Assembly (NCBI GenBank): GCA_030549495.1
Contig: JAUIRK010000535.1
Location: 106,660 to 170,659 of the forward strand
DNA from: Nectonema munidae
Taxonomy: Eukaryota > Nematomorpha > Nectonematoida > Nectonematidae
Direction of reading: 5' to 3'
Length of the DNA stretch: 64,000 nucleotides
In this document: in pieces, positions 3,474-38,900 of the stretch
Layout: each line of letters starts with the position of its first letter
How positions within the stretch are numbered: position 1 is the first letter of the stretch
Made by a program: the position numbers and the translations under genes
Notes under the pieces: generated by a model
Told to the model about the DNA's origin: nothing
The model's input: the letters and a program-made list of their open reading frames with translations, nothing else
The model's database searches: none

Positions 3474-4329
3474 GTGATAGTAAAAGCCAACATGCCAAGT
3501 TTATATCCTAGTATTTCAAACGGTGGGAGAAAATACTTTATCAGTAGGCCTTATCTCTCACGGAAAGGTCTATGCGAATCAGTTGTGATAAGGCATCTCT
3601 ACTCGTATCATGGCTAAAAACCTTTTGACTTTTTACGGATTCAATAAAACATATGATACAGTCCCCTCATCAAGTCGTCGTGGTTATTGTTTTGTGTCAA
3701 ATTGCCACCCAAGAAAAAGAAGGTCGATATGTAAGTCATACCATACTTGTATGTTCTGAATGTGGAAATACACAAACGCGATTGTTTTATAAATACTATT
3801 ATTGTTTATCTTAATTTTTTTTCATTCTTGTTCGACGTTTTATCTCATTTATTTTATTTCTAAACTAATAAATCTTTTTGTTCAATATTTTAATTTTTGA
3901 TAGATGGCGTTGAAATTGACCGATTTCAAAACTTAGCCCATTTTTTCAAAAGATTTTTCATAAAACAGAAAAAATTTACATGTTAATTTCAACATGACTT
4001 ACATATTAACTTCCTTGTGTAAATTGCCTTTGAAAATGATAGGTGACATAAAACTCCCACTCCGTACAAGCAAACACAAATTTAAAAAATATTAAAATGT
4101 AATAATTAATTTTTTATGAAGCAAAATAAAATAGTTAAATGATACAAACGAAAATAGTCAAACCATAAATTCAGATACTCTTACATGGTGGTTCTGATTC
4201 AAGATCTACAAAAAGTAAAATAACAATTTTAGGGAAAAAAGCCTATCAAAAAAGTTATAGAGCTTCAACAAAAAAAATTTTACAGCATAACTCAGGTTTT
4301 TTGAAAACTAATTTGACGTATCCATAGAG
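3474..4329. other. No gene recognised
   Basis: A+T-rich sequence without credible ORFs. About 4200-4230 (CTACAAAAAGTAAAATAAC) recurs near 30085, marking a dispersed repeat family. Confidence 0.45.
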
Positions 4330-4558
4330 CAGCGTTATTCAAACTGTGGGTCCCGAAAATCTAAAAGTATTAATATTTTATTCATACAAATAAATAAAGC
4401 GATGTGCAGATCATAAAAAAATATACATATGAATTGTCGATGCTGAATAAATGAACGCAGTGATCAGAGTTTGTCTCATTACACCTAAGTATTATGGGTC
4501 GCGATGCAAACTGTGCTTCTTGCTAAGGGTCTCAGTAAAAAAAGTTTGAAAAACGCTG
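4330..4558. mobile_element. hAT-type MITE, 229 bp
   Basis: The left end CAGCGTTATTCAAACT matches the inverted right end CAGCGTTTTTCAAACT at 15 of 16 positions, followed by GTGGGTC-type sequence. CAGNGTTNTTCAAACT is a typical hAT terminus. The flanking octamers (CCATAGAG and CACTACAG) match poorly, so the target duplication has decayed. There is no coding. Confidence 0.7.
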
Positions 4559-4572
4559 CACTACAGCATACT

Positions 4573-4645
4573 CTATGAGTGGCATGGCAGGTTGTTGAGA
4601 TGATGGGCTCAGCACGAAACCTCTGGGTTCGATTCCTCATCGATA
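4573..4645 (+). repeat. tRNA-derived SINE head (pol III A and B boxes)
   Basis: A B box (GGTTCGATTCC, 4626-4636) lies 46 bases after an A-box-like TGGCATGGCAGG (4580-4591), the spacing of a tRNA gene. The cloverleaf is badly worn, so this is not a working tRNA. The downstream sequence (TTCATAGTTTGACAAAGCGG, from about 4656) recurs near 30122, as expected for a dispersed SINE or composite repeat. Confidence 0.5.
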
Positions 4646-5984
4646 CCAATTTGTTCATAGTTTGACAAAGCGGTACATCAGTGAATTGTCGATGAAAACA
4701 CCCCCACCTTTTACTCAAAATTGGAAAATTTGCTACATAATTAACATAAGAGAGAAAGGAGACAAAATAAACTAATAAAGCAATTTTCACTATTTTAAAA
4801 TGAAACTGTCTGTTCTCAGAATAATTTCACAATAATAGGGGGCATAAAAAATGAGATAGTCGGCACTTTATTTGATATTTTCAAGTTTTTATAAGCAGCA
4901 AAAGCCAACGTAGCTAACCCTTATAGGGTGATTTTGTAACGCTTGTATTTTTTACATTTTGTAAATAATCATAGTATACAAAAAACGGTAGTTTAATCAC
5001 TTTTCATAAAATTAAAGAACACAAAATCATTAAAAAACTATTTAAACTAACATAAATCATAAAAATCATAGTATGCGAGAACAAGAAAATCATTGCCTTT
5101 TTAGACTATTTCTCTGTCTACAAATAAACTTCTGACAGCTGTCATAAATAGATCAAGTACATTTTTAACTACTGAAACATTTTGTTTCGATATTATATTT
5201 TTATTATAATAATCAACAAATTTTCCTAAAAAAATTATTTATTAATTATGAAAAATATCTTTGCTTAAATATTAAACAAATAGAGTATTCTTGCTTTTAA
5301 ACTGAATAGCTAGTCAAAATATTCATACCCAAATAGCTATTTAAAAAAAATTTCTTGACTTGAAAAAATTAAAGTTTTCAAATGTTACAAAATGTAACAA
5401 GCGTACTCATAAAGATTAAAAAAATTTTAACACGAGTCTGACAATATTCATTGATATAAAATTATAACGATTGAAAACTATTTTTCCCTCATTCAAAAAC
5501 AAACAAATTTTCATTTTTGCAAAATGTTTGGTGTATTGATGGAACTAAATTTTAAAAAAAAAATCGGTGATTAATTTGAATTGCTGAACTTTGGTATCAT
5601 GAAATAAGCTTCTGAAAATATTGAACTTATATTACGCTAAAAACTAGTTTCTAATGAGACAAAATAAAATTATATTTAATTTAACTCTAAATACAAATGA
5701 GAGAGAAGAGAGGTGAATGAGAGTAGAAAGCTTGAGTGAGAGAAGAGGGCTTGAGCCATTGAGTTTTAGCAAAGAAAGCGGAAGAGAAAAACAGAGGAGA
5801 CAGAAAGAGAAATAGAATCACAGTAACAGAAGATGAGAAAAATCTCGTAGATCATCAACATGTGTTTGCTCAAAAATACATTTTCGCCCCTGCTAGGATC
5901 ACGAGGATTTTCCAAACCAAGAAATCAGATGTGGCGATATAATTTATTCTAAAGACCCACCCATAGTTGATCCTTCTCAGGAAA
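4646..5984. repeat. Dispersed repeat and purine-rich tract; no gene
   Basis: About 4775-4830 (TTTTCACTATTTTAAAATG and onward) recurs at 16570-16625. From 5695 to 5835 the plus strand is almost purely GA-rich, a purine tract of about 140 bases. It sits just upstream of the piggyBac relic and could be its decayed 5' end. No credible coding. Confidence 0.45.
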
Positions 5985-17900: not shown

Positions 17901-20900
17901 CATTATAAAAAAATTTTGAACCACATTGAAGAATATAAATTTCTAATGAAAAAAGCGCTACCAAAAAAGGATCATCGTAGAATGAATAGCAAAATTACAT
18001 ACCGTAAATTATAAAATGACGTAGAGACTACGAGCCGATAACAAATTTGTAGCCAAAAAGATGGAGGTCGTATCGAGATGCATAAGTTACTGTAGAATGA
18101 AATATTTTGAGTGAATTAAACACCTAAAGTTGGTTTATTAAATAAATTAAGAAAATAATTACCAGAGAAATACTGCAAGTAGAAGTTATTTTTATGTTTA
18201 TAAATTCTACATACTTGAAATGTATAAAAAAAACTTTTTATAAGAATAAAAATTTTAATTTTGACATGGGCTGTCATATTTAAATTATTTTGTCAGGTTT
18301 GACTAATATTTATAAAAAAAAAGGAATATAACCAGTAAACACAGCCTACTTGAAAATGGGTATATATATGTAAAATGCCATACACGGTAAACTTCATCAT
18401 CTCCCTATACTTTTATTTAACGTAATTCTCTAATTCAAAAAACCGTGCCTGATCCTTTCTTTTTGGGATAAATCAATTTTTTGACAGTTTTGATTGTTTT
18501 TCATTAAAAAAGAATATCACCACTGAATTAGGCATGCTTAAAAATGGGTATATATGTGTAAAAAAACTTTATATTATTACTTAGATAAAAAGTTTCTTTT
18601 TAAGATGAGCTGTCATATATAAATCAATGCTTTGATAACTTTAATTGATTTTTATAAAAAAAAATGAATATCACCGCTGAATTCAGCATGCTTGAAAATC
18701 GGTGTATATCAGAGTGGTCCATCAAAGCATGGTAAAAATTTTTTTTTAGATAATTTTGATTAGAACCCTGCATTTGGTTTTGACACTTAAAAGATTATTG
18801 AGGCAGAAATTTGAAAGAAAAATATGTTTTAAAGGCTGCACAAGTCGGTCAAAGTTTCTTGGCAATTACATAACTTTGCGTTTTTGGCAAAAAAAAAGAT
18901 AGATATAAGTAGCAGCCGTTTTTGAGTAATATATTAAATAAATAGGGCGAATACCAAGTTAAATTACTCTGATTTATGTTAATAATTGCTTTTTTAGACA
19001 TATAGAGCAGATGGAGTGCAATAGTAGCCAAGCAATCGACAAAACAAAAACCAGATCTACATCTCAGGTATGGTTAGTTGGTCCTGTCAATTCAACTTTC
19101 CCACAGCAAGGGAGGCTGCCAACACTTCCTGAAACACTTGCTGTTTTCTTCCACTATCACACAGATGGCAAACAGAAACTTAAACAAAGTGCTCGAATGA
19201 CAGTGTCACAGTTAATACCATTCTGGCAAAAAGCTGGTTTACCAACCGCTTTAAGCTATGATATAGAAAAACGCCTAATGAAAGTCCACAGACAATTCCA
19301 AGGGTTGAAGAAAGCAATTAAGCGCAAATCTAAGACACAACAAGCAAATGAACAGCAATTTATTGAAAAATTAAAACAATTATTTGACATTGCTCATCAA
19401 AGTGCTAATAAATTGATCAAGTTACCAGAAGACCGTCAATTTCTCAACCTCCAAGATACATGACATGTGTAGATGAAGAATGGACAAAGAAAGAAGGAAT
19501 GATCAAGAGAAAGGAGTCCTTTAAAAGGCGTAGAGAGATGGCAAAAGAAGAGCAACGGGACTTTTAGGAAAGCCGCATTAGTGCTGTGATTTCTTGCTCT
19601 GATTCAGAATCTACCAGCCAAGATTCAGAACAAGATAACACTACCAAGCCAATAAAACCTCCCAAAAAAGAACTGACATTTCTAAATCAAAGACATCTCT
19701 AATGTCCAGCAATGTGACAACTGCTTTGGACACCTTAAAAGTCACTGACCGCCAAGCTGTCTCCTTACTCGCAAATGCAGCACATTCTCTTGGTCACAGT
19801 GTTGAAGATATGACATTGAGTCGTAGTTCAATTCGTCGGGCAAGACTAACAAATAGGAAAAAATGGTAAATGCCATAAAAGAAAGTTACAATGCAGATGG
19901 ACCATTGACAGTTCATTGGGATGGAAAGTTGATTCCAGGTATTACTGGATGTGAGAAGGTCGACAGGTTACCAGTAATTATTACCGGTGCAGATACAGAT
20001 ATTCTTCTTGGCGTTCCAAAATTACACAATGGAACAGGACAAACTCAAGCAAATGCTGTGCTCACATGCATGAATGGAAAGTATCCAACCAAGTGACCGG
20101 CATATGTTTTGACACAACAGCCAGCAACACTGGGCGTATCAATGGAGCCTGTATTCTGATTGAAAACGCACTAGGAAGAAATGTTTTACACTTTGCCTGC
20201 CAACATCACATCTTTGAAATAATCTTAGAAAAAGTCTTTACTGCACTACAAATAACCCAAACATCATCTGGGCCGGATATTGCCCTATTCAAACGTTTCA
20301 AAGAAAAATAGTCCACGATTGATACCCGTTATTACTCCACAGCTTCAGAGAGAAGCGAGATTGCTGAATTTAAGGAAGATACAATTCAGTTTGTAAGAGA
20401 ACAACTTAGTCAACAGCAACCACGGGATGACTACAGAGAATTTTTGGAGCTTACGGTCATTTTTCTTGGAGAGAATCCACCTCGGGGAGTTCATTTCCAA
20501 GCTCATGGCGCTCTTCATAGAGCGAGATGGATGGCAAAGTAGTTTACTGCTATAAAATGTGGATGTTTAGAAAGCAGTTTACCTTGAAAGCATCGGAAGA
20601 GCGCGGAATGCTGCAATTTCTACTTTTTGTTGCAAGTCTCTACACGAAAGTCTGGTTTGAAGCGCCATCACCAGCCAAAGCTCCTCAAAATGATTTAACA
20701 TTTCTCAAAAAGCTGTCAACGTATAGAAATTCAGTTGTCAAAAAAGCAGCTTTAAAATCCTTTGGCCGACATCTTTGGTACTTAAGTGAAGAAATGGTTG
20801 GCTTGGCATTCTTTGACTCGAGTGTGACAGAAGAGCAGAAAAGGCTGATGGCTCATAACATTATAGAAAAGAAGGGTTCACAGGTTCCATCAAGACGTTG

Positions 20901-23900
20901 TAACGCTCTCAATCAAGCAGATTATGAGAGAAAGCAGATCAGCGATTTTGTCACCAAGAACACGGTGCGTTTCTTTGAAACTCTGGATTTGCCACAAACA
21001 TTCCTATAAATTCCTCCTGTAGAGTGGGCTGATAATGCAGACTTTCAGAAGGCTGCTTAAATTGTGCATTCCAGAAAAGTTGTCAACGATGTTGCTGAAA
21101 GGGCAATCAAGTTGATTCAAGACTTCAACCGTAACCTAATGAAGAACGAAGAACAGCTCCAGTACTTACTGCAAGCTGTCAACGAGCATAGGCATCTGTT
21201 TTCTGATGCCAATAAAGTTACATTGATTGCTGGACTTTCTAAGTAACATATTTATGTGTGTTTCAGTTAATTTTTTCATAAATAAAAACACAAATGATTA
21301 CAACATATTTTTTCTTTTTAGCTCGTTTGTTATTGCATTAGGCCTTTTTCAAGTGTCATGTGCAACATTTAAAAAATATTTTTTTTGCATGAAATTTGGA
21401 CTTAAATAATTGGAACAGATATGGAATCGAATTCGGGGTTCTAATCTTAAGATTTAAAAAAAAAAATTTTTGACCACTCTAGTGTATATGTGTAAAAAAC
21501 TTTAAAAAACTTTATATACTTATTTAGATAAAAAGTTCCTTTTTCAGATGAGCTGTCACATTTAAATAAATTTTTTGATAGGTTTAATTGATTTTCATAA
21601 AAAATGAATATCACCACTGAATTCAGCATATTTGAAAATGGGTATACATGTGTAAAAAACTTTATATACTTATTTAGATAAAAAGTTCTTTTTTGAGATG
21701 AGCTGTCGCATTTAGATCAATTTTTTGACAGGTTTGATTGATTTTCATAAAAAATGAATATCACCACTGAATTCAGCATATTTGAAAATGGGTATACAGT
21801 AGACTCCCTCCTAGCGACCAGCCCTCTAAAACGACTAGACCACTATTTTAAGACCAATTCCTTGCAGTCCCATTTTTTGTGTATATTCCTACATAATAAA
21901 GACTCTCTCCAAAACGACCAGTTCTCTATTCAGAATTACAACCATTGAATCATGTCCCAAATCTAGTTTTACTCTCTCTACTACGACCATTTGTTGTTTT
22001 TTACGAGTGTTGTCAACTTTGATTGTCAACATTTAAAGATAGTGTTATGGAAACTACAGAGAGAGAGAGGTCTTTACATCACGAAAAGAATTTTAAAAAT
22101 TTTTAATTGCTGTATTCAATTGTACAACGGGCCATCTTAATTTTTATAACAACGCGTATCAAACTTGATACATATTTTACACATGTTGGTGCGAGACAGA
22201 GATAGCAATTTAAAAAACTTAATTAATCAAACTCAAATTTTTATTCAGCCCTCTTGTTACCGCATATACAAAAAAAATGTCCCTGAATTTTGCCAGTGTT
22301 GCAAAAATGCAACACCGTTTTAAGCTTCTTGAATATGAAGTATTTAATAAGCTTTTCAAAGGGGCAGGGCACCAACCATTGAAATAAATTGCTTTTTTAT
22401 TTGAATTTTTGAAATCTCGACATTCTAACTCAAATTATGATTTTCTGGAAAACTTTTCTTTGGTTTTTATGGAAACTAAAGTAAAGTGTTGCTAATAGTT
22501 GAAACATTTTATATATGAAAAACTTTCATTGAATATTTTGATTTATCACATTAACTTCTTTTGTTTTATTGTGTTGCATTAATACAACAGTGGATATTAC
22601 TGTGTACAAAAAAGTGTATGCTGAAAAAATAAGCTTCTCATGTTATTTTTCGAATATTTACAGACTATTATTTGATCATATGATATAATCTATGTATGCA
22701 CCTTTGTATCGCACAGTTTTTTGATCAATATAAGTGCATGCATTCAACATGCACTACATTCATTCAAACATGACACGCATAACTTTGTTTACAGTTCAAT
22801 AAAGGCATGCATTCATACAATTTTTTATCATATATATGTTCATCTTACAATACATTTTTCCATGTGTCAAACATAAGCAAAAATTTGGTGCATGCTAATA
22901 ATAACTCAAATGTTATTTCCGTTTTTTTAACAAAAATTCATGAGTTGCTTTTTCGGTCCAAAATTTTTATATATAGTACACATATGTGTTTGTTTCCTTT
23001 ATCATTATTTCAAGTTTTTTTCATTATGGAAGACCGAGTTGAGTTAAGCTTGAATGATGCTCTAAATCTAACATAAGACGAAAGCCAAGGCACTTTCATG
23101 ATATATATTACTCCTCCGTGCCTAAATACTAACAATTTTGATACTGAAGAAGATTCGGCTGATGATGAAAACGATGATAAGGGCGTCGATATTGACAATT
23201 TTTCTAAAAACATGCTTGAAGCAGAAGCGGAACTTGTTTTTTCGAATCAAATCAAAGTCCACAACCTTTAATTATGGGTGAACAAAATCAGGGTGATTGG
23301 ATTGATGGAGAGATGATGAATTTATGTTTACTACAAAAGTTTGAATTAGCTGCTCAATCAGAACAAAGTGTTTCTCATACCTATTCATCAGCTTCTGAAG
23401 TATTCGAATTCTTTTTTTTCAATAATATAATATTAGATAAAATTATAGAATATTCCACCGTTTATGCTCGTTTTAAAGGTGTAAATTTTAGTATAGATAG
23501 AAATGAAATAAAAGTGTTTTTTTGCATACTAATTCTGAGTGGTTATGTGAAATGTAGAAAAAGGTCTATGTATTGGGGGAGTAGTAATGATACTCATAAT
23601 CAGGCTATTTCAGAGGCAATGTCTAGAAATAGATTTACAGAGATTATGAAATATATTTATTTTAATGATAAAACTCAGATAAATCAGATTTTTTTGTCTA
23701 CCAAAGATAAAATAACTAAAATAAGACCTATCGTTGATAGTTTGAGGGTTTTATTTGATAAGCATTCTCCCTCTTTTAAATATTTTGACATCGACGAAAC
23801 AATGCTTCCTTACTTTGGGAGCTATGGTTGTGGCATAAAACAAGCAGTTAGAAATAAGCCAATACGGTATGGATATAAAGTATTTTGTTTAAATCTCGAT

Positions 23901-26900
23901 TGTAGCTATCTCAAAAACTTTGAAATTTATCAGAGTAAGAGTGGCCTTCAAAATTTACACAATGAAAAACTTGGGTTGGGAGCAAATGTAGTTTTAAATT
24001 TATTAGACCAGCAATGTGTGCATAAACATTTGTTTATAGATAATTACTTCACATCTATAAAACTGTTAGAAGAAGTAAATAAAAGAGAAATTCTATGCAC
24101 CGGAGTGATAAGAAAAGATAGGGCCAAAAAGTGTGGTTTAAACAAAAAACTTACAAATAGAGGAGATTTTTTTTCAAAAGTAAATAATAATTCAACTATT
24201 GGCATTGTTGCATGGAAGGATAATGTAATAGTCAACGTTATCTCTAATGTCAACAGTGTATGTATATCCTTTGAAAAAAGCAAAGCGGTGGAATGTTGCT
24301 TTGAGAAAAAAAGTTGAACTTCCGATTCCGAATTCAATTTATTTGTATAATAAAAACATGGGATTTACAGACTCGATGAATTATTTGCTGTCTTTATATA
24401 GACCAACAATCAGGTCTAAGAAATGACATTTTCCTTTAGTAGTTTTTCTATTACAAGCTTCACTTTACAACGCTTCAATATTATTCAATTTGAATCGCAA
24501 AAATAAAGTTTCCTTGATTTTACAAGAGACGTTGTTATGGAAACATTACAAAAGTATAGCAATAAAAATTCATCAAAAAAAATTGGCGGGAAAACAGTAG
24601 CATCGAGAAATTCCAAAGAAGCTCGATTTGATGGGCAAAATCACATTTTAGAAAAGAAAATCAAAAGGACTAGATGTGCAGTATGTAAATCTCAAACATA
24701 TTACTTTTGCTCAAAATGTGATGTTACTTTGCACATATCGTGTTTCAAAGATTTTCACGAAAAATGATACAAAGTTTTCTTTTTCATTACTACACTTTAT
24801 AAATAAAAAATTACACGCTTTGAATTTACTTTTTACATTTTCAAAGTAATATTTTATTTTTAATATTTATCAGTTACATTTTTCATTCATAAATAGCGAA
24901 AAAATGAAACTATGTATAAACAAGTTTCAAAAAAATTGTACTCCTAATGTTTTGTACCCTAAATTTCCATTTCCATTTTGAAAATTTATTACGAAACGTT
25001 TTATCCATTTATAGGCATTTTGCACTCAATTTTAACATATTGTTATGAGTTCAGAAAGTTTCATACTGATGAAAGAAACAAAATGGGGAGAAATAACAAA
25101 ACAAAGGGTACAAAACATCTTAAATATAAACGTCAAGAACACGACTAAAATTGTTTTAGAGTAGAAAATGTCAAAAAAAAATAAGAACGAATTTTCTTTG
25201 GTATGAAACTCTAAAATAGTGATAAAAAACTTTTGGTATAAAATGCAGTGAAACCGTACAAAAAATCTTATATATATACAAAACGTCGTGGGTACAAAAC
25301 TTCTAGACTTCGAAAACTATTCTGTAGTTTTGTACTAAATCTCTTTCAATGTTTGAATCAACATCAGTATTTTTGATTTTTAAGTTAATTTCAAAATGTT
25401 AAATTTGAATAACGACTAATTAATTCAAAAGTACACATTTTAACTTTTAAAGCAACGACTTTATATTTTTGTTTGAATATTTTGGAAAAAATTGACTTTT
25501 ACTCAGAGAAAAAATTGACTTTATTGACTTTTTAAAGTTTCATTGAATTGAACAACTATGAACACTTTAGAGAAAGTATTGAAAATTATTTCAAAGAATC
25601 CATGACTTTGTAATACAACAACATATAATTAATCGAATTTTCTGATTTAAAAAATTCGATCATTTTCTAGCCGTTTTTTTTCAGTTTAGAAAAAGATCTT
25701 TCTACTTCTAAAGTTAAAACTTGACAAATTTGTAATTTGGGATAAGTACTGCGAGATTTTTCCGTATTCGTGATTTTATTGATTTCATTTTATTTGAATC
25801 GATTTTCAAGATACCTTTTAACGCCACATTCGTCTTAAATGAAATAATGTTGAAGAAACAAGTAAATGCATCTTCGACTGAAAATGTCTCTATTTTGACT
25901 TTTTCCGACTAAATCAATAAATCGTGAATATTCTCTAATTATTGTTAGCAAGTTTTGACACAGATTTTCTTTTTTTTAACAATTTCTTGATATTTGGCAA
26001 TAAAATTCCATCATTTTCATCATTAATTTCTTCACTGCTGGAAGATTTTGCCGATAAGTTTGAAAAGAGAACGTATTTTTCTATTACTAATTTTGAATGA
26101 TTTAATGCCGGTAATCTACAATTTTGTAGGATACTTTTAGGGTAAACTTGTGTAAAAGATGTGAAAAACATGCAATGATAAAAAAGTTTGGGAATAAAAT
26201 TCCATAACTTCTGCAGCGAATATATCGTATGTAACTGCATTTGTCAACAAAAAAATTTGTCTTACAAAAAACTTTTTTCATGTTTAACCTCAGTCAGGCA
26301 AACTTTAGAGTAAAACCTTTTATTAGATGAAAAAAAGCCCAACTATTGTGGAAGTGTTAATATAAAGAAGAAATCTTGTATGTATCGATTATAACAATTT
26401 TTGCACATTGAAGCAAAAAGTGTTAAATATAAAAATGGACTTTATTGACCTAAGCTCGAAAAATTGACTTTGATTGACTTAAAAATTTGAAATTAGTTAA
26501 AAAAAATGTAGACAAAACAAGTAAAGATCTTCTTCAAAGAGTTTTTGCTAAACGGAAATAATAGTTGACTTTATTGACTTTTACTCGCCCTGAATTACTA
26601 TGACTAGCCTGTGTATATTCTGTAATTTTTTTAAATCTGAAAGCTAAAAGAGAAATATGGTCAATTGGTCATACTGTAAGAATAATATTCGAATAATTAT
26701 TCTGTATTCTTTATTTATTAGGTTATAAAATAAACTTGATTTTGTGAAGTCTAACAATACATAGTATTTTTTATTTTCAATTATATTTCTATTTTGAACT
26801 TTTTTTTTGCTCATTTTTTTCTTGTTTTTTCCAAAATATTTTAGGTTTATTTTTATGGAATTTTTAAAAAGGTAAAACATTATGAAAATATAATTTGTTT

Positions 26901-29900
26901 ATTTTCAAATTTTTTAAACAGATTCAATAGTTAGACTTGAAAGTTTCTTTTTCAAAATTAAATTTTTTATTTAAGTAATATTTGAATATTTAATGTTTTA
27001 CATTGAAAAAATAATTTTAATAGTATTAAAAAAACCTTTTTTTTCATTTTGTACACTGCAAATACCAGTGTTGTATTTATGCAACATTAACAAAAGCAGG
27101 CTTATAAAATCAAAAAATTTCAAATTTTAATTATAGACTAATTTTAACATATAATTATAGAAAAACTTGTGAAAATTTTGGCTATACACTTAAATTTATC
27201 ATGGCGGTAACACCGCATTATGTTGCAAAAATGCAACGCTGGTAACATTCGGGTTAAATCAAAGCGTCTGTAAACTTTATTCACCACGTTACCCCCACTC
27301 CTTAATTCATTTTTTTCCCATTGACTTTACTTGATCACTTTGATATTAGAGCTTTTTGGTGAAGTAATCATTATTATTCTCTTAAAATAAAAATGTTTAT
27401 ATTTTTTGGAACATTCTTGATTTTGAACCCATTATTGACTGAATTAAGCAGACATTACTTTACAAAACGAAGACGAAACATAATTGCATTCAAAGAGAGC
27501 AGACGATTTTCAATTTTTGAAAGTCGTCATATGTTGACTATGGTCAATAATGCGTTCAATTATTGATTTTCAAAGTAAGACTATGAGAATTTAGGTTAAT
27601 TTACTATACTTTTCAATAAAGTTTTCATTTTTGTCATAATTTTTCTCTGTAAATTCAATTCTTCAAAAATTTATCTTAAATTATCTTAATTAATTTTATT
27701 TCTGTATTTTTAGTAAAATTCAATTTTTTGGTCTCTTTGTTACTGAAAGTTGAGTTTTAAAGCTTTGGTTTTCATGTGTTTTGACATAGGAACTCATTTT
27801 TTTTCTCTGCATTAATCAAAAATTTCCAAAAGGCCTTCTACCAAAGTGTCCGATTCTAAAGCTCCCATTATTGTAACTTTTTGAGTATTTGTATAAAGGT
27901 AAAGGTATATTCATTTTAAGTTTTGGTTTCAAGGAATTTTGGTAGAGGACGTTTTGAAGATTGACCATTTTTATTAAAATACAAAATACTAGCTTTATCT
28001 AAAATTCCAAAGTGTGAAAACTTAATTTCACACTTTAAAACTTTAACTACCTTTTTGTTTAAGTTTAAGATAAAAACTTCATATGTCTCTTCGCAAAGAA
28101 TTAAAAATTTCTGAAAAAATAAAAGTGATAAAAAGTTATGACGTAAATAAAGCAAGTCAACGCGAGTTAGCAAAAGAATTTGGTGTAGGCAAAACACAAA
28201 TAGCCAGCATACTCAAACGTAAGGAGGAGTATTTAAAAGCGTATGAAGATGACTTACCTGTCTCTCGAAAAAGACTGTGCTCAGGGATTGAAAGTGAAGA
28301 GCTCGAAAAAACCATTCGGACATGGTATCAAAAAGCTAGAGTAATGCTAATACCGGTCTCTGGACCAATGATTCAAGAAAAAGCTCTCTTAGTAGCTTCA
28401 AAACTTAACTTGCCAAACTTCAAAGCATCTGATGGTTGGCCACAAGATTTATAGCCAGGCACAATATTGTTAACCGCACTATAAGCGGAGAGAAGGGCGT
28501 TGTCGATAACCTGAGTATCGAATCTTTTAAAAATAAGTTGTTGGAAGTTATTTCTAAATATGAACCTGAAAATATTTACAACATGGACGAAACCGGTCTT
28601 GGTTTTAGAGCGTTGCCTGACAAAACCCTTGGTATAAAGGGCAAGGGCAAAAGTTGCACAGGCTTGAAAAAATGCAAAGAAAGACTGACTGTCTCTCTAT
28701 GTGTGAAACAAATCGGTAATTTCGAAAAAACAGTTGTTATTGGAAAGACCCAAAGCCCAAGATGTTTTAAAAATATTAAAGTGGATGAATTACCTGTCAC
28801 CTACTATAATAATAATAATCGTAAAGCGTGGATGACCTCATGTATATTTACTGATTGGACAAAGTGTATCAATAAACGCATGAAAACGCAAAAAAAAAGT
28901 TTTATTGATTCTTGACAACTGCCCATCACATCCTCATCTAGAACTCAGCAATGTTAAGCTGCTTTTTTTGCCTCCTAATACATCTTCTGTTTTACAGCCC
29001 CTCGACCAAGGCATTATTAAAACCTTTAAAAGCTTTTACAAAAGTAAACTTTTACGTCATGTCATAAGTCTCATAAATGATGAAATTACTCCCTTGAAAT
29101 TATCAAAAAGTGTGTTTTAGATGCCTGCTATTGGATAGCTTCTTCTGTTAAAGAAATCAAGACGACAACAGTAGAGAAATGCTTCAATCGATGCATGCAG
29201 ACAACAAACAATGATTTTTCTTTTTCAGAAGGGGTTGGCGAAACCGTTTGTGATGAACTTTTAAAAGTTCTTGCACCCCAATTACCAGATCCAATCTTCA
29301 CTACTGAAGAATATATTAGACAAGTTGATGACCTGCCTGAAATCGAAACTTTATCAGAAAACTGGGAGCAAGAGCTTTTGAGTGAAATACCCTCTTCTAC
29401 TCAGGCTATTCAAATGGGAAACCTTTCTGATGACACTGAAGAGCAAGAAATTTCTCCAAAGTCTACAATAAAAACTTTAGGCAAAGCTTTATTAAACGCG
29501 ATAGAATTGAAAAGATTTTTGAAAGAAAAAAACCTCATAAAGTCTCTAGAAGACATTGAGAAAATAATAGAAGCTATTCAAGCAAAAATTATTGAAAGCC
29601 AAACAAGACAGACATTAATAACAAATTTTTTCAATTAATAAAGTAGATTTACACTTTAAATCTTTTCAGTAGTGTACTTACAATTGTTTTTACTACAAAC
29701 TTTCAATCACTCTCTCTAATAAGGGCATCTCTATATTAAGACCACTTTTTATCAGTCCTGAAGGTGGTCGCTTTACTGAGAGTCTACTACTTTATAGTTA
29801 TTTATATAAAAAGTTCCTTTTTGAGATGAGCTGTCACATTTAGATCAATTTTTTGACAGGTTTGATTGATTTTCATAAAAAATGAATATCACCACTGAAT

Positions 29901-32900: not shown

Positions 32901-35900
32901 CCACCCTCCCTACCTTTCATCCATCTTATTTAAAAAACATATTGATATTAGGCTTGTCACAGAACTTTCTAAACTACATTACTACAGCCTTATGCTCAAT
33001 TCATAATCTTAATTTTTATTGTGTGTCGGCTTATTTTCCACCGATTTCTAGTGATTGTGTAGATTTCTTTTTTAACGCAATATTCCCGATCATTGCTGGC
33101 GAACGAATACTGATAGTTGGAGACACGAATGCACGGCACGTTTTTTGGGATTCCAAAAGTAACTATCAAGGTAACCTTTTGTATAAAAAGTTTTTAAATT
33201 TTTTTCTGTCCCCTTAATTAGTTTAGGGTGAGTTTATCATAGATCCTCAGAGATTGCAATCGAGCGTGCCACCAATGTATCATCAGAAATATGTTTAGGA
33301 TGAAGTTTCCTCTATATTTGATCAAGTTCATCAAATCGTATTTGTCAGAACGTGTTATTTTCCTTACAGGTTACACCAATGTTTTCAAGAAATTGAACTG
33401 CTCAACGCCTCAGTGAGGATGGCTCTCAGATATTCTCTTCATAATTTTGATTGATCCATTATTAGAATTTCTTAGTAACTCAGCTTGTTTTTACCAAGAT
33501 TTTTCCGATGACCTTGTTATTGGAGTTGGTGGCAAAAACCCCACAGATAATCTAGTTAAACGGGACATTCTCTTAACTAAAACCAAACAGTTTGCGGACT
33601 TGCTAAATTTGAAACTTAACCTAAAGAAGTGTGCTCTCATGAACTTTAGTAAGAATGTTCTTCCTTCTTTCACATCCTGGGGTATGATTTTCAAGCATAA
33701 AAAATATCTGAACATCTTCAGTGTACTATTTAACTCTATATTAACCCTAATTGTGCAGAGCTTTTTCTCATTCCTCTGTGCAAGGGGGGGGGGGGGGGGG
33801 GGGGGTCTTTTCAAACCTCCCCCCCCCCTTCTGTTCATCCTTAATTTTTTTTAAAATATCTGAAATTTGAGTTGTCTTTTCAAACCTCCCCCCCCCCCCT
33901 TCTGTTCATCCTTAATTTTTTTTAAAATATCTGAAATTTGAGTTGTAACTAGTTTCTAAACTTTCAAGTGTATGTTTAGACAAGGTTTAAGCGCTTAAAA
34001 TCTTCTCATTAGATATAGAATTAAAATTTCATACTCATCTCCCGGAAAAAAGTTTGTAAAAGGATAAATTTTCACTTATAGCGAAGTTAATATATTTACC
34101 TGAACAAAAAAATCTAAATCAAATTATTTGTGTTCAGAGCACGGCGTAGTTCCCATTTGTCTTTTGAAATAAAGTTGAAAATATAAAAAACTTGTTTGGG
34201 CAGGTAAACTCTTCTGATTTATAAACTAAGAATAGGTTGATTAGGTGATACTTTGTGCGAGAAAAACTATTCTTTGTTTGATGAGCCACAAAATGAGGAA
34301 AATTTTGTTTCGTGTGCAGATGGAGTCATGGAAGAGATAACTTGGACAAATTATGAACCTGTTAGGTTTGGAAGACAAAGAGCTGCTGATATTATAAGAG
34401 ATGTACCAGGTGTTAAAGGGTTGGCCAAAAATATTTTAGATTGCAGGAATCTTTTTTTTGATAAGAAAATAGTTACAAAAATTTTGAATTATACAAATTC
34501 ACGAATTGATAATTATATGAAAAAGCCTCTCATATTTGAAAAGCTAAAGAAAAACCGAACCACTTGTGTCAGAAAAATATCTAGTGTTGAATTTTATGCT
34601 TACATTGGGTTATGCTACTTGAGGGCTTTTTCAGGTCAAAATGTCCATAATCTACTGGCGCCATCGGAGGGGGACTTCGAGGACTCTTTATGCCAGAAGG
34701 AAAGCGCAAAGCGCCCTAAAGAGAGCCTCCTTTTGCCATAAGGAACACCCATTGTCCGCGGACGGAGGTGCAGTTGGGCCCCGAGAAACTTATGAATCCA
34801 CATTAAATCGAAAAAGTGGTGGTGGCCACATTTCACCAACCTTTTGTCTACGCTTATGACATCTTACTTCATGCTGTAAAAGATGGCAAACGACAACAAT
34901 GGCCACGATTTACTGTGGTTTTTGAGAAGTGTTTCATCTTCCTATCTGAGCGATAAAAAAGCATGTATTAATATTTTCCCGAGAAAATCTTTCAAAAAAG
35001 GCAAAGTGAGAGTATATGAAAGTGTACGACTTAATGGAAGATCACACTGGCTAAAACAGATGGACAAAGTGAGATGTGCTGTTTCTTCATGGGCAAGGCG
35101 AACCAGAGTGATATGTGAAACTTGTGATGTGGCTTTATGCATTGACAATGGACATTTTAAACTCTTCCATACTTCAAAAGTGTACTAATATTTTTAAGAT
35201 TAAATAAAATCCCTTTTATAACATTATCTTTTCTAAATTTGATAGATTGGAAACTCCCTAGCGTGGACATATGTGTACGCTAGGGTGTACCACGCCATAA
35301 GGGTAAAAAATGAAGTTTTGAATTTATAAGCGCACACATGCTCAGTCGAATCTCCCAAGCATTTAGGCGAAATTTGAGCAAATTTTAACAAAGTCACCCC
35401 TCGTGGACGGGACATTTTACTCAATTTATATCATTTAGACAATTGTTCGCTGCTGTTCGGTTATGTTTTGGCATGATTTTTTACGTTATGTTATCTCGTA
35501 TCACGAACTAATACGAGTATAATAGAATAGCAGGCTGAAATTTTTCATTATATATCTTTGTAAGACACAATAAATGTATTACACTAGAACGTACGTTTTA
35601 CGTACGGCACGGCACCGAATGGCGGACGTAAAACGTAGGATTCGTAAAATCCAGGTTGACCTTTAAATTGACATACAACACGAAAATCCTAGTCTGGATC
35701 ACACATGGTCACTAGGGTGACAAAAAATGTATGGTAAAAATTTAAAAATAGAAAATTCATTTTCTTAGCCTCTTATTTTTTTCCTTTTAGGTCTTTAAAC
35801 TTCCATGCAAAAAACTTTTTGATTTGCTATGATTAAAGGGTTGCGCACGCTCAATAAAATAGGGCAGTAGAATTTCCATTTCAATTTTTTAATGCTCTAG

Positions 35901-38900
35901 AAATGATTTTTTTACATGAAAGAACAAACATTTTATGGTTAGTCGGCCAAACATACGAATCGGTTTCTGCAAGCAAGCTGCCATTCAATAGAATTGTATT
36001 AGGTAGATTTTTGCATCTTCATCGAATCAAAGGAAAAACACTCACAGAAAGTGCAAAAATAACTGTTGAGGAACTTCTTTCGAATTGGAATAAAGCAAAA
36101 ATACCCACTAAACAAAGCTATAAAATTACTAAAAAGAGTTTTATTCGCAGTGGCAAAATCTTCGAAAAAGCGTGAAAAGAAAATCTGAAACTCAAAAAAA
36201 GAAAGACGAAAAGTTTTTGAACATTCTTGATGATTTATTTGATGTTGCACATCAAGATGCCTTGAAATTAATACTTTGTAAAGAAGACAAAGAGTTTTTG
36301 CTTGCTCAAAGGTAGGAGAGGATCGATGGATAAAGTTGATAGAAAGCTTGCGGGTTTAGAAAAAAAAGAAAGAAAAGAGTAGAAGATGAAGAAAAAGGAA
36401 AGAAAAAGAAGTGAAAAGAAGAAAAGAAACAGAACGTGTTTTGCAAAATGAAACTAATTCGGATTTCACTGTTGAGGAAAATGAAAATGATGATACTACT
36501 ACAGTAAAACTATCCAAAAGTCAAAACAGAGTAGTAAAAACCAGGAACATAATGACATCCGAACTATCATCGGCTTTGGATCGAACAGGTGTTAGTGACA
36601 GAAATGCTATGCACATACTTTTTGCTACTCTAAAGGCTTTAAATCATGAACCCAACCAATACACTCTCAAAGAGAGTCTTTGAGGCAAGCTAGAAGATTA
36701 AATCGAGAAAGTTCAAGTAAGACAATCATGGAAATTTTCAATCCATTGCATTGCTGTTATCGTTTCTGGCAAAGGCATTACAAAGCTTCTTGCTGTTCCT
36801 TTAATTGAAAACAGTAGTGGTTTTTCTCAAGCTAAAGTTGTTTTAGAAACTTTACTGAAATGGAATTTGCTTGATAAAGTTACAAGCATGTCATTCGACA
36901 CTACAAGCAGCAACACGGGTAAAAACCTGGGAGCTTGTATGATTTTGCAGGAAAAAATCGGCAAAAAATTGTTACCTCTAGCTTGCAGACATCATGTACA
37001 TGAACTGATTGTTAAACATGTTTTTGACGCTTTACTAGAAGAAAAATCATCTAGTCCAAACAAAAAAAATGTCTTCGAAGAGTTTCGTGAGTCTTGGAAA
37101 AAGATTGATAAGTCATCCTTAGAGTGCTTACCAACTGAAGAAAAGTGGGAAGTTTTTGATTCTGATGAATATGAAAATCTGATCGACTTCATCAAAGAAC
37201 AGTTGTCCAGATTTCAACCAAGAGATGACTATAAAGAACTTCTCAATCTTAGTTTAATATTTCTTGGAGAACAAAGAACAGATGTTAAAATCTATGCCCC
37301 TGGTGCAGTGGCGTAGCCAGAGGCACCCCCCCCAATACCTTTTCTGCCCCCCCCCCCCAAATAATTTTATTTCCAATATGCTTGCCCCCCTAAATTCCTT
37401 GCATGCCCCCCCCCCCCCCTCTAAATTCCTTGCATGCCCTGGTGCTTTTTGGCTACGCCACTGCCCTGGTGCTCATCAGAGGGCAAGATGGATGTCAAAG
37501 TTTATATATTGCTTGAAGATAACCTTGAAGTATATTAAACATAAACTTAAATCATAGTGAGGCCTTAAAGAAATTCAATATATTCATTGTCAAAATATAT
37601 TTAAAAAAATGGTTCATGAGCTCTTGTTCTAGCTTTGCACCATTAAATGATCTTCAACTACTTCAAAGTTTCATAAAATATAAAAAAGTAAGTAACAAAG
37701 TAGCAACAACAGCTTTAAAGGTTTTTCTTCTTCCCTTGGCTTTATTCGATTGAAGAATAAACAAACAAGAAAAACTTAACATAGTCCAATCAATCCAAAA
37801 ACCACGAAATCTTTATCATCCTTTAACCCTATTAGTGCTGGGGGGCGTAAAACGCCCCCCCCCCCTTCACTAAAAAATTAATTGTAGAAAATTGGCTGAA
37901 TCATATCCCTTCAAATTTTGTGACTTTTCCTAAAATCGCTAGCTGCATCTTTTGAAACCATTTTCATGGTAGTTGAATGACCCCTTCATGTTCAAAACTG
38001 TCAATCAAAAACAAAAATTAAAATTTTTCAGCAAAATTTTGACATTATCTGTACTTAACCTTATAACTTAGGATCTATATTATATACTACCCTGAAAATT
38101 TTTAATTATATACAGTTTGGAACGCATACCACTTTATATATTTAATTTTTTCATTAATCATGGCTACTTTTTAGAAAATGTCAATCAAAATTTTGATTAA
38201 TCAAAAATATACCTAATAAAATATACCTTCAAATTTTACATAAAATATATGTTTTTATACTAAATCGGTCATGCTGTTTTCATTTCTGAACTCATTTTTT
38301 ACATTTAGGATTTGAAAATGCCTATAAGTAGTAATCAAATTTGCAGTTTACTTCTGAAAATTGTCTCCAAAAACATTCCTTCACATTTTACATAAAATAT
38401 ATGTGTTATACTAAATCGGCCATGCTGGTTTCATTTCTGGACTCATTTTTTACGTTTAGGATCTGGAAATACTTATAAGTGTTAATCAAATTTGCGGTTT
38501 ACTTCTAAAAATTGTCTCCAAAAACATTCATTCAAATTTTACAATGAAATATGTTTTATACCAAATCAGCCATGCTGTTTTCATTTCTGAACTCATTTTT
38601 CACATTTAGAGGTTTTAAAATATCAGTCAATGTCAATCAAATTTGCGGTTTACTTCTAAAAGCTATCTCCAAAAATATTCTCTCAATTTTACATGAAATA
38701 TATGTTTTTATACCAAATCAATCATGCTGTTTTCATTTCTGAACTCATTTTTACATTTAGGATGTGAAAATACCTATAAGTGTTAATCAAATTTGCGGTT
38801 TACTTCTAAAAATTGTCTACAAAAACATTCATTCAAATTTTACAATTAAATATATGTTTTTATACCAAATCAACCATGCTAGTTTCATTTATGGACTCAA

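Follow-up and report, generated by a model that had tools for sequence, protein, structure and literature searches.

A decayed hAT-like DNA transposon in satellite B of Nectonema munidae and the family to which its transposase relic belongs

A 64,000-nucleotide stretch of the Nectonema munidae genome (contig JAUIRK010000535.1; hereafter the window) contains, at 18702–21489, a sequence with inverted ends, a flanking octamer repeat and a coding relic that lies within an array of a satellite, satellite B. A first-pass annotation read this sequence as a far-diverged member of the hAT group of transposons. Is the octamer a genuine target site duplication, and does the relic derive from a hAT-type transposase? 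The insertion has the following parts.

18710..21481, + strand: whole element, a decayed hAT-like DNA transposon of 2,772 bp (ends common to copies genome-wide)
18702..18709, + strand: target site duplication, left copy, GTGTATAT (sequence inspection, flank comparison across copies)
21482..21489, + strand: target site duplication, right copy, GTGTATAT (sequence inspection, flank comparison across copies)
18710..18719, + strand: left terminal inverted repeat, CAGAGTGGTC here and TAGAGTGGTC in the majority of other copies
21472..21481, - strand: right terminal inverted repeat TAGAGTGGTC
18729..18943, + strand: imperfect, gapped subterminal inverted repeat, left arm (local alignment of both ends)
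21270..21477, - strand: imperfect subterminal inverted repeat, right arm (local alignment of both ends)

The inverted termini and the GTGTATAT direct repeats are present as the first-pass annotation had claimed. When the flanks are joined without the element they are satellite B, aligning at 87% over 300 columns to the array at 21504–21790 and also to satellite B arrays elsewhere in the window. The empty-site sequence AAAATGGGTATATATGTGTAAAAAAC occurs at seven places in the window within three mismatches, compared to a mean of 0.00 in shuffled sequences. The further claims that empty sites exist in the same window, and that removal of the element and one octamer restores ordinary satellite B, are thus borne out. 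A gapped and imperfect inverted repeat of the element ends extends ~230 bp inward (local alignment, without a shuffled control), and copies at three other genomic loci (L009, L014 and L020) contain inverted self-matches of ~110–120 bp at 70–72%.

The coding relic within the element was delimited by blastx against the protein P0019, whose residue numbers are used below.

19011..21246, + strand: transposase relic in six frame pieces, interrupted by in-frame stops (blastx against P0019)
19011..19460, + strand: N-terminal domain, mostly helical and open over 150 codons, without a BED zinc finger
19914..19928, + strand: HWDGK, with the proposed first catalytic Asp codon at 19920–19922 (P0019 D319; predicted structure)
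20108..20134, + strand: FDTTASNTG, with the second catalytic Asp codon at 20111–20113 (P0019 D384; profile comparison)
20198..20209, + strand: C-Q-H-H, the CxxH motif (C-R-H-H in relatives; profile comparison)
20519..20533, + strand: RARWM, putative counterpart of the R-W that hATs carry in their insertion domain (P0019 R522, W523)
21085..21105, + strand: NDVAERA, with the proposed third catalytic acid, Glu codon at 21097–21099 (P0019 E712; structure)

Matches to P0019 fall between 19029 and 21237, with 55–63% identity in five pieces and 32% in the sixth, and the matched pieces (two of which overlap) contain six in-frame stops. All five motifs, NDVAERA being an addition to the four named earlier, are read in frame in the relic. 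Intact relatives in the same genome (L029, L030 and L034–L038) have one uninterrupted frame of 697–765 codons.

At least 208 related proteins were found at E ≤ 0.001 in a first search and at least 509 in a profile search. Source organisms named among the listed relatives are a limpet, aphids, a moth, an ant and a brine shrimp, though most rows lack an organism name. Across 103 members, D384, C413, W523 and D709 are conserved in all 103, and D319 and E712 in 102. None of the best 120 relatives listed per search has a precomputed Pfam domain, and the BED finger (PF02892) is not among the domains of the listed relatives. Pfam scans of the relic pieces and relatives returned weak matches below curated cut-offs or matches to unrelated families, and neither a single protein nor the family profile, searched by sequence against the PDB, reached a match below E 0.06. 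A viral structure library yielded no match at E ≤ 0.001, and 59 IMG/VR stretches fit a pattern, none of which was confirmed. The N-terminal domain, common to the relatives, has no Pfam or PDB match, though its model is mostly confident, and no Cys is found among its 90%-conserved columns. Among the open-access papers listed by our searches, no title or abstract opening names the family.

In the predicted fold, a helical insertion interrupts an RNase H-like core, as the hAT reading would have it, and Hermes ranked first among structural matches (Foldseek, VIA). This house fly hAT (PDB 4D1Q, 6DWW, 6DWZ, 8EDG, 8SJD, 2BW3) resembles the present family in the large helical insertion of its RNase H-like core, which is predicted here, and in the T2/A7 bias of its 8-base duplication (PMC8721813). 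It differs in its length (612 residues according to PMC3942097, versus ~750), and the present family is set apart by the helical N-terminal domain described above in place of a BED zinc finger, by TAGRGTG ends and by sequence identities of 10–13% in the Hermes alignments. For the top Foldseek row the TM-score is only 0.33 by query length and 0.46 by target.

We next turn to profile–profile comparison, for which the hAT profile was built from 35 BED-type (ZBED4-like) hATs (alignment A3), collected with L042, itself a hAT from this genome. The full-length family profile matched these hATs weakly (15.9% probability, E 0.0016). The core profile alone reached 79.5% with a score of 35.7, and the second catalytic D and the CxxH fell in register; the best of 30 column shuffles scored 19.2, and the reversed profile scored 16.2. 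The C-terminal profile scored 13.2, below its shuffle maximum of 15.3. All 35 of these hATs carry both BED (PF02892) and Dimer_Tnp_hAT (PF05699), in contrast to the listed family members, which have no Pfam domain. PF05699, a model with 150 scored matches in the same genome, was not found in the L029 and L030 proteins or among the precomputed domains of the listed relatives. Nor do hAT Pfam models, PF05699 included, appear among the 25 of 37 families listed when 44 members were scanned at E up to 1. A similar comparison applies to hATx-6 of Hydra, which likewise makes an 8-bp duplication biased at positions 2 and 7 and is described in the same article as carrying BED at its N terminus and PF05699 at its C terminus (PMC8721813), neither of which was found in the present family.

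The motif equivalences, four of which the first-pass annotation had proposed, differ in their basis. FDTTASNTG corresponds to the second catalytic D and C-R-H-H to the CxxH of canonical hATs by profile, and a small MULE control produced no such score. HWDGK is proposed as the first catalytic D from the predicted structure. The Glu of N-D-x-A-E-R (E712) would be the third catalytic acid, judging from the fold as opposed to a sequence alignment. For RARWM, equivalence to the hAT R-W is a proposal from motif order and the general form of the hAT motif.

A CxxH motif and helical insertions are known from several superfamilies of eukaryotic transposases, and the family could in principle belong to another DDE superfamily, unrelated or intermediate (MULE, Kolobok, KDZ/Zisupton or an undescribed one), whose hAT-like ends and 8-bp duplication arose by convergence. 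To our knowledge the PDB contains no structure of a MULE or Kolobok transposase, and the structure search therefore could not rank these two. The profile comparison speaks against this reading, since the core aligns in register with hAT (35.7) and not with MULE, for which a control of only nine sequences, all from this genome, scored 14.0 with the core and 18.1 with the catalytic part. hAT alignments of equal depth scored 27.1–33.9 in five draws, at probabilities of only 8.2–37.2%. Neither the MULE domain PF10551 nor KDZ is among the 25 of 37 Pfam families listed for the 44 members. Kolobok and piggyBac duplicate TTAA, whereas the duplications here are 8 bp and not TTAA; Kolobok was compared by this trait. 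We regard convergence of another superfamily as improbable.

A slightly smaller chance falls to a P-element-like (THAP9-like) transposase. P elements make an 8-bp duplication and have a DDE core with an insertion, features shared with the predicted RNase H-like core and insertion domain here, and the Drosophila P element strand transfer complex (6P5A) comes directly below the Hermes chains in the PDB ranking (Foldseek 3.3e-03, probability 0.99). This second-best PDB family is nonetheless a weaker fold match than Hermes, with an E-value ~3,900 times worse than that of the best Hermes chain and ~77 times worse than that of the eighth. A second structural comparison does not list the P element among its 50 rows, an absence that we do not count against this reading. 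The ends of P elements differ, while the CAGAGTGG/TAGGGTG ends and T2/A7 target bias observed here are of hAT type. Pfam models for THAP or P-element domains are listed neither for the L029 and L030 proteins nor among the 25 of 37 families of the 44 members. This reading was judged by PDB ranking and Pfam listing; P/THAP9 has five matches in the genome.

The hAT-like reading also makes a prediction about other copies, for which we searched the genome (211.6 Mb, 748 contigs). The N-terminal piece of the relic has at least 150 genome matches, from 382 candidates. Among these, 33 rows (window included) exceed 70% identity, many of them matching a fraction of its length, and the remaining rows are divergent; open frames of 690–767 codons contain 10 of all listed matches. 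The left-end pattern occurs at 30 genome places with up to two mismatches, versus one for a control. A survey of ends and duplications covered the window copy and 29 loci (20 from one search, nine from another). A regular-expression scan for ends was discarded after giving false or shifted right ends in L009, L016, L023, L046 and L050.

Both ends are kept in 11 surveyed copies, the 19 others lacking one or both, and an exact in-register 8-bp duplication flanks nine of the 11 (the window, L009, L010, L013, L014, L015, L019, L020 and L022). L010 and L013 have common flanks and are counted as one event. At L023, where the right end is damaged, eight bases match after a two-base shift, and L052 has no duplication, though both of its ends are kept. 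When the left flank of one copy is paired with the right flank of another, 4 of 108 pairs match over eight bases. Several duplications are TATATA runs, in which chance matches are commoner. Set against the cross-paired flanks, the duplications are not due to chance, and other copies share the ends and, in most cases where both ends are kept, the 8-bp duplication, as the first-pass annotation had anticipated.

More divergent subfamilies were represented by ten loci (L029, L030 and L034–L041), five of which have TAGGGTG ends and an exact 8-bp repeat (L034 ATGTATAC, L036 ATGTCCAC, L039 GTGGGGAA, L040 ATACACAC and L041 ATGCGTAC). Because 8-bp identity was a condition of this search and the shared TAGGGTG was not, the TAGGGTG start is the sole independent evidence in these subfamilies. 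L030 has both ends, yet only six shared bases that are out of register, and L029, L035, L037 and L038 have a single recognisable end each. One subfamily (L029, L030, L034 and L035) contains several long open frames (697–751 codons), and its compared copies are 97.5–98.8% identical at the DNA level in long alignments, which together suggest recent movement. Beside the L030 copy, at 3805–4791 of that locus, lies a Tc5/pogo-like open frame (DDE_1, HTH_Tnp_Tc5, CENP-B_N).

The window itself contains a second copy from another subfamily.

35714..37846 (end approximate), + strand: second decayed copy of the same transposase family

Its left end, TAGGGTG at 35714, resembles those of L040 and L041. 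Its right end was not found, and matches to other relatives reach 38023. A C-rich insert of ~145 bp, judged by eye, lies near 37316–37460.

That the 8-bp repeats are a by-product of satellite or AT-alternating sequence, to which similar octamers at satellite junctions of the window and the few matching cross-pairs would lend some weight, is scarcely credible given the exact register of nine of 11 pairs, including the L015 duplication GGCAATAT outside satellite B and without a TATA run, the duplication of ATGTCCAC, GTGGGGAA and ATGCGTAC in other subfamilies, and the normal satellite monomer that the junction forms once the element is removed.

Taken as target site duplications, the octamers disclose a target preference. 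Over 14 events (L013 omitted as a duplicate), position 7 is A in all 14 and position 2 is T in 13; a binomial test of this bias assumes independent positions at 35% and is too optimistic for TATA runs. Hermes favours the same T at 2 and A at 7 of its 8-base duplication, according to PMC8721813. Four of 13 joined insertion sites (the window, L009, L014 and L034) lie in satellite B, from two subfamilies and in both orientations, and all are at one octamer, which reads GTATATAT, GTATACAT or GTGTATAT on the satellite strand. The claim that the duplication is proven by its own satellite host is thus right and can be extended beyond the window. The consensus RTRYRYAY, derived partly from these same satellite B insertions, fits only the insertion octamer in the tested 150-bp monomer, and the looser NTNNNNAN fits 28 of its octamers. 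The satellite is a natural record of target choice, with filled sites beside empty ones.

Satellite B ends at 21797 with CAGTAGACTCCC and restarts near 29793 after ...GAGTCTACTA. The interval 21797–29792 has the look of a further insertion into satellite B, larger than the element described above and also with inverted ends.

How should the family be classified? hAT terminal inverted repeats are of the CAGNG/TAGGG type, and hAT excision leaves hairpins on the flanking DNA. According to PMC3942097, hAT elements have 8-bp target site duplications and measure 2.5–5 kb with short inverted repeats. The window element, at 2,772 bp with CAGAGTGGTC/TAGAGTGGTC ends (TAGGGTG in divergent subfamilies), falls within this description, as do the duplications, a tenth two-ended copy matching after the two-base shift. 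The shared ends, 8-bp duplications, predicted fold and core profile support the interpretation as a far-diverged hAT-group transposase, and the element is very probably a defunct copy of a DNA transposon that moved by cut-and-paste in the manner of hAT elements. Because the hAT duplication, ends, target bias, predicted fold and core motifs were found, and PF05699, BED and a matching C-terminal sequence were not, the family is a hAT-like lineage, inside or beside hAT, that we do not file under Ac, Buster or Tip. A bolder reading, to which we give a little less than an even chance, is that it is a separate invertebrate branch of superfamily rank that never possessed the BED finger or lost it, that binds its ends with a helical fold not recognised before, that has so far escaped Pfam, and that uses satellite arrays, with a single ideal octamer in each monomer, as landing strips.

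Under the hAT-like reading, a single open frame would encode one transposase of ~750 residues, laid out as a mostly helical N-terminal domain and an RNase H-like DDE core, with a helical insertion of ~280 residues predicted between the fifth strand and last helix of the core. The N-terminal domain presumably binds the element ends. The transposase would bind the short TAGRGTG terminal inverted repeats that the copies share and then excise the element, by a chemistry that may include a hairpin intermediate and in which E712 would serve as the third acid beside D319 and D384. Integration with an 8-base stagger, preferentially at alternating purine/pyrimidine sequence with T at 2 and A at 7, followed by host repair, would produce the 8-bp duplications observed.

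Hundreds of proteins that are now nameless, ‘hypothetical’ or ‘uncharacterized’, with invertebrates as the source of the named ones listed, would become identifiable as hAT-like transposases, an identification that changes both repeat and gene annotation.
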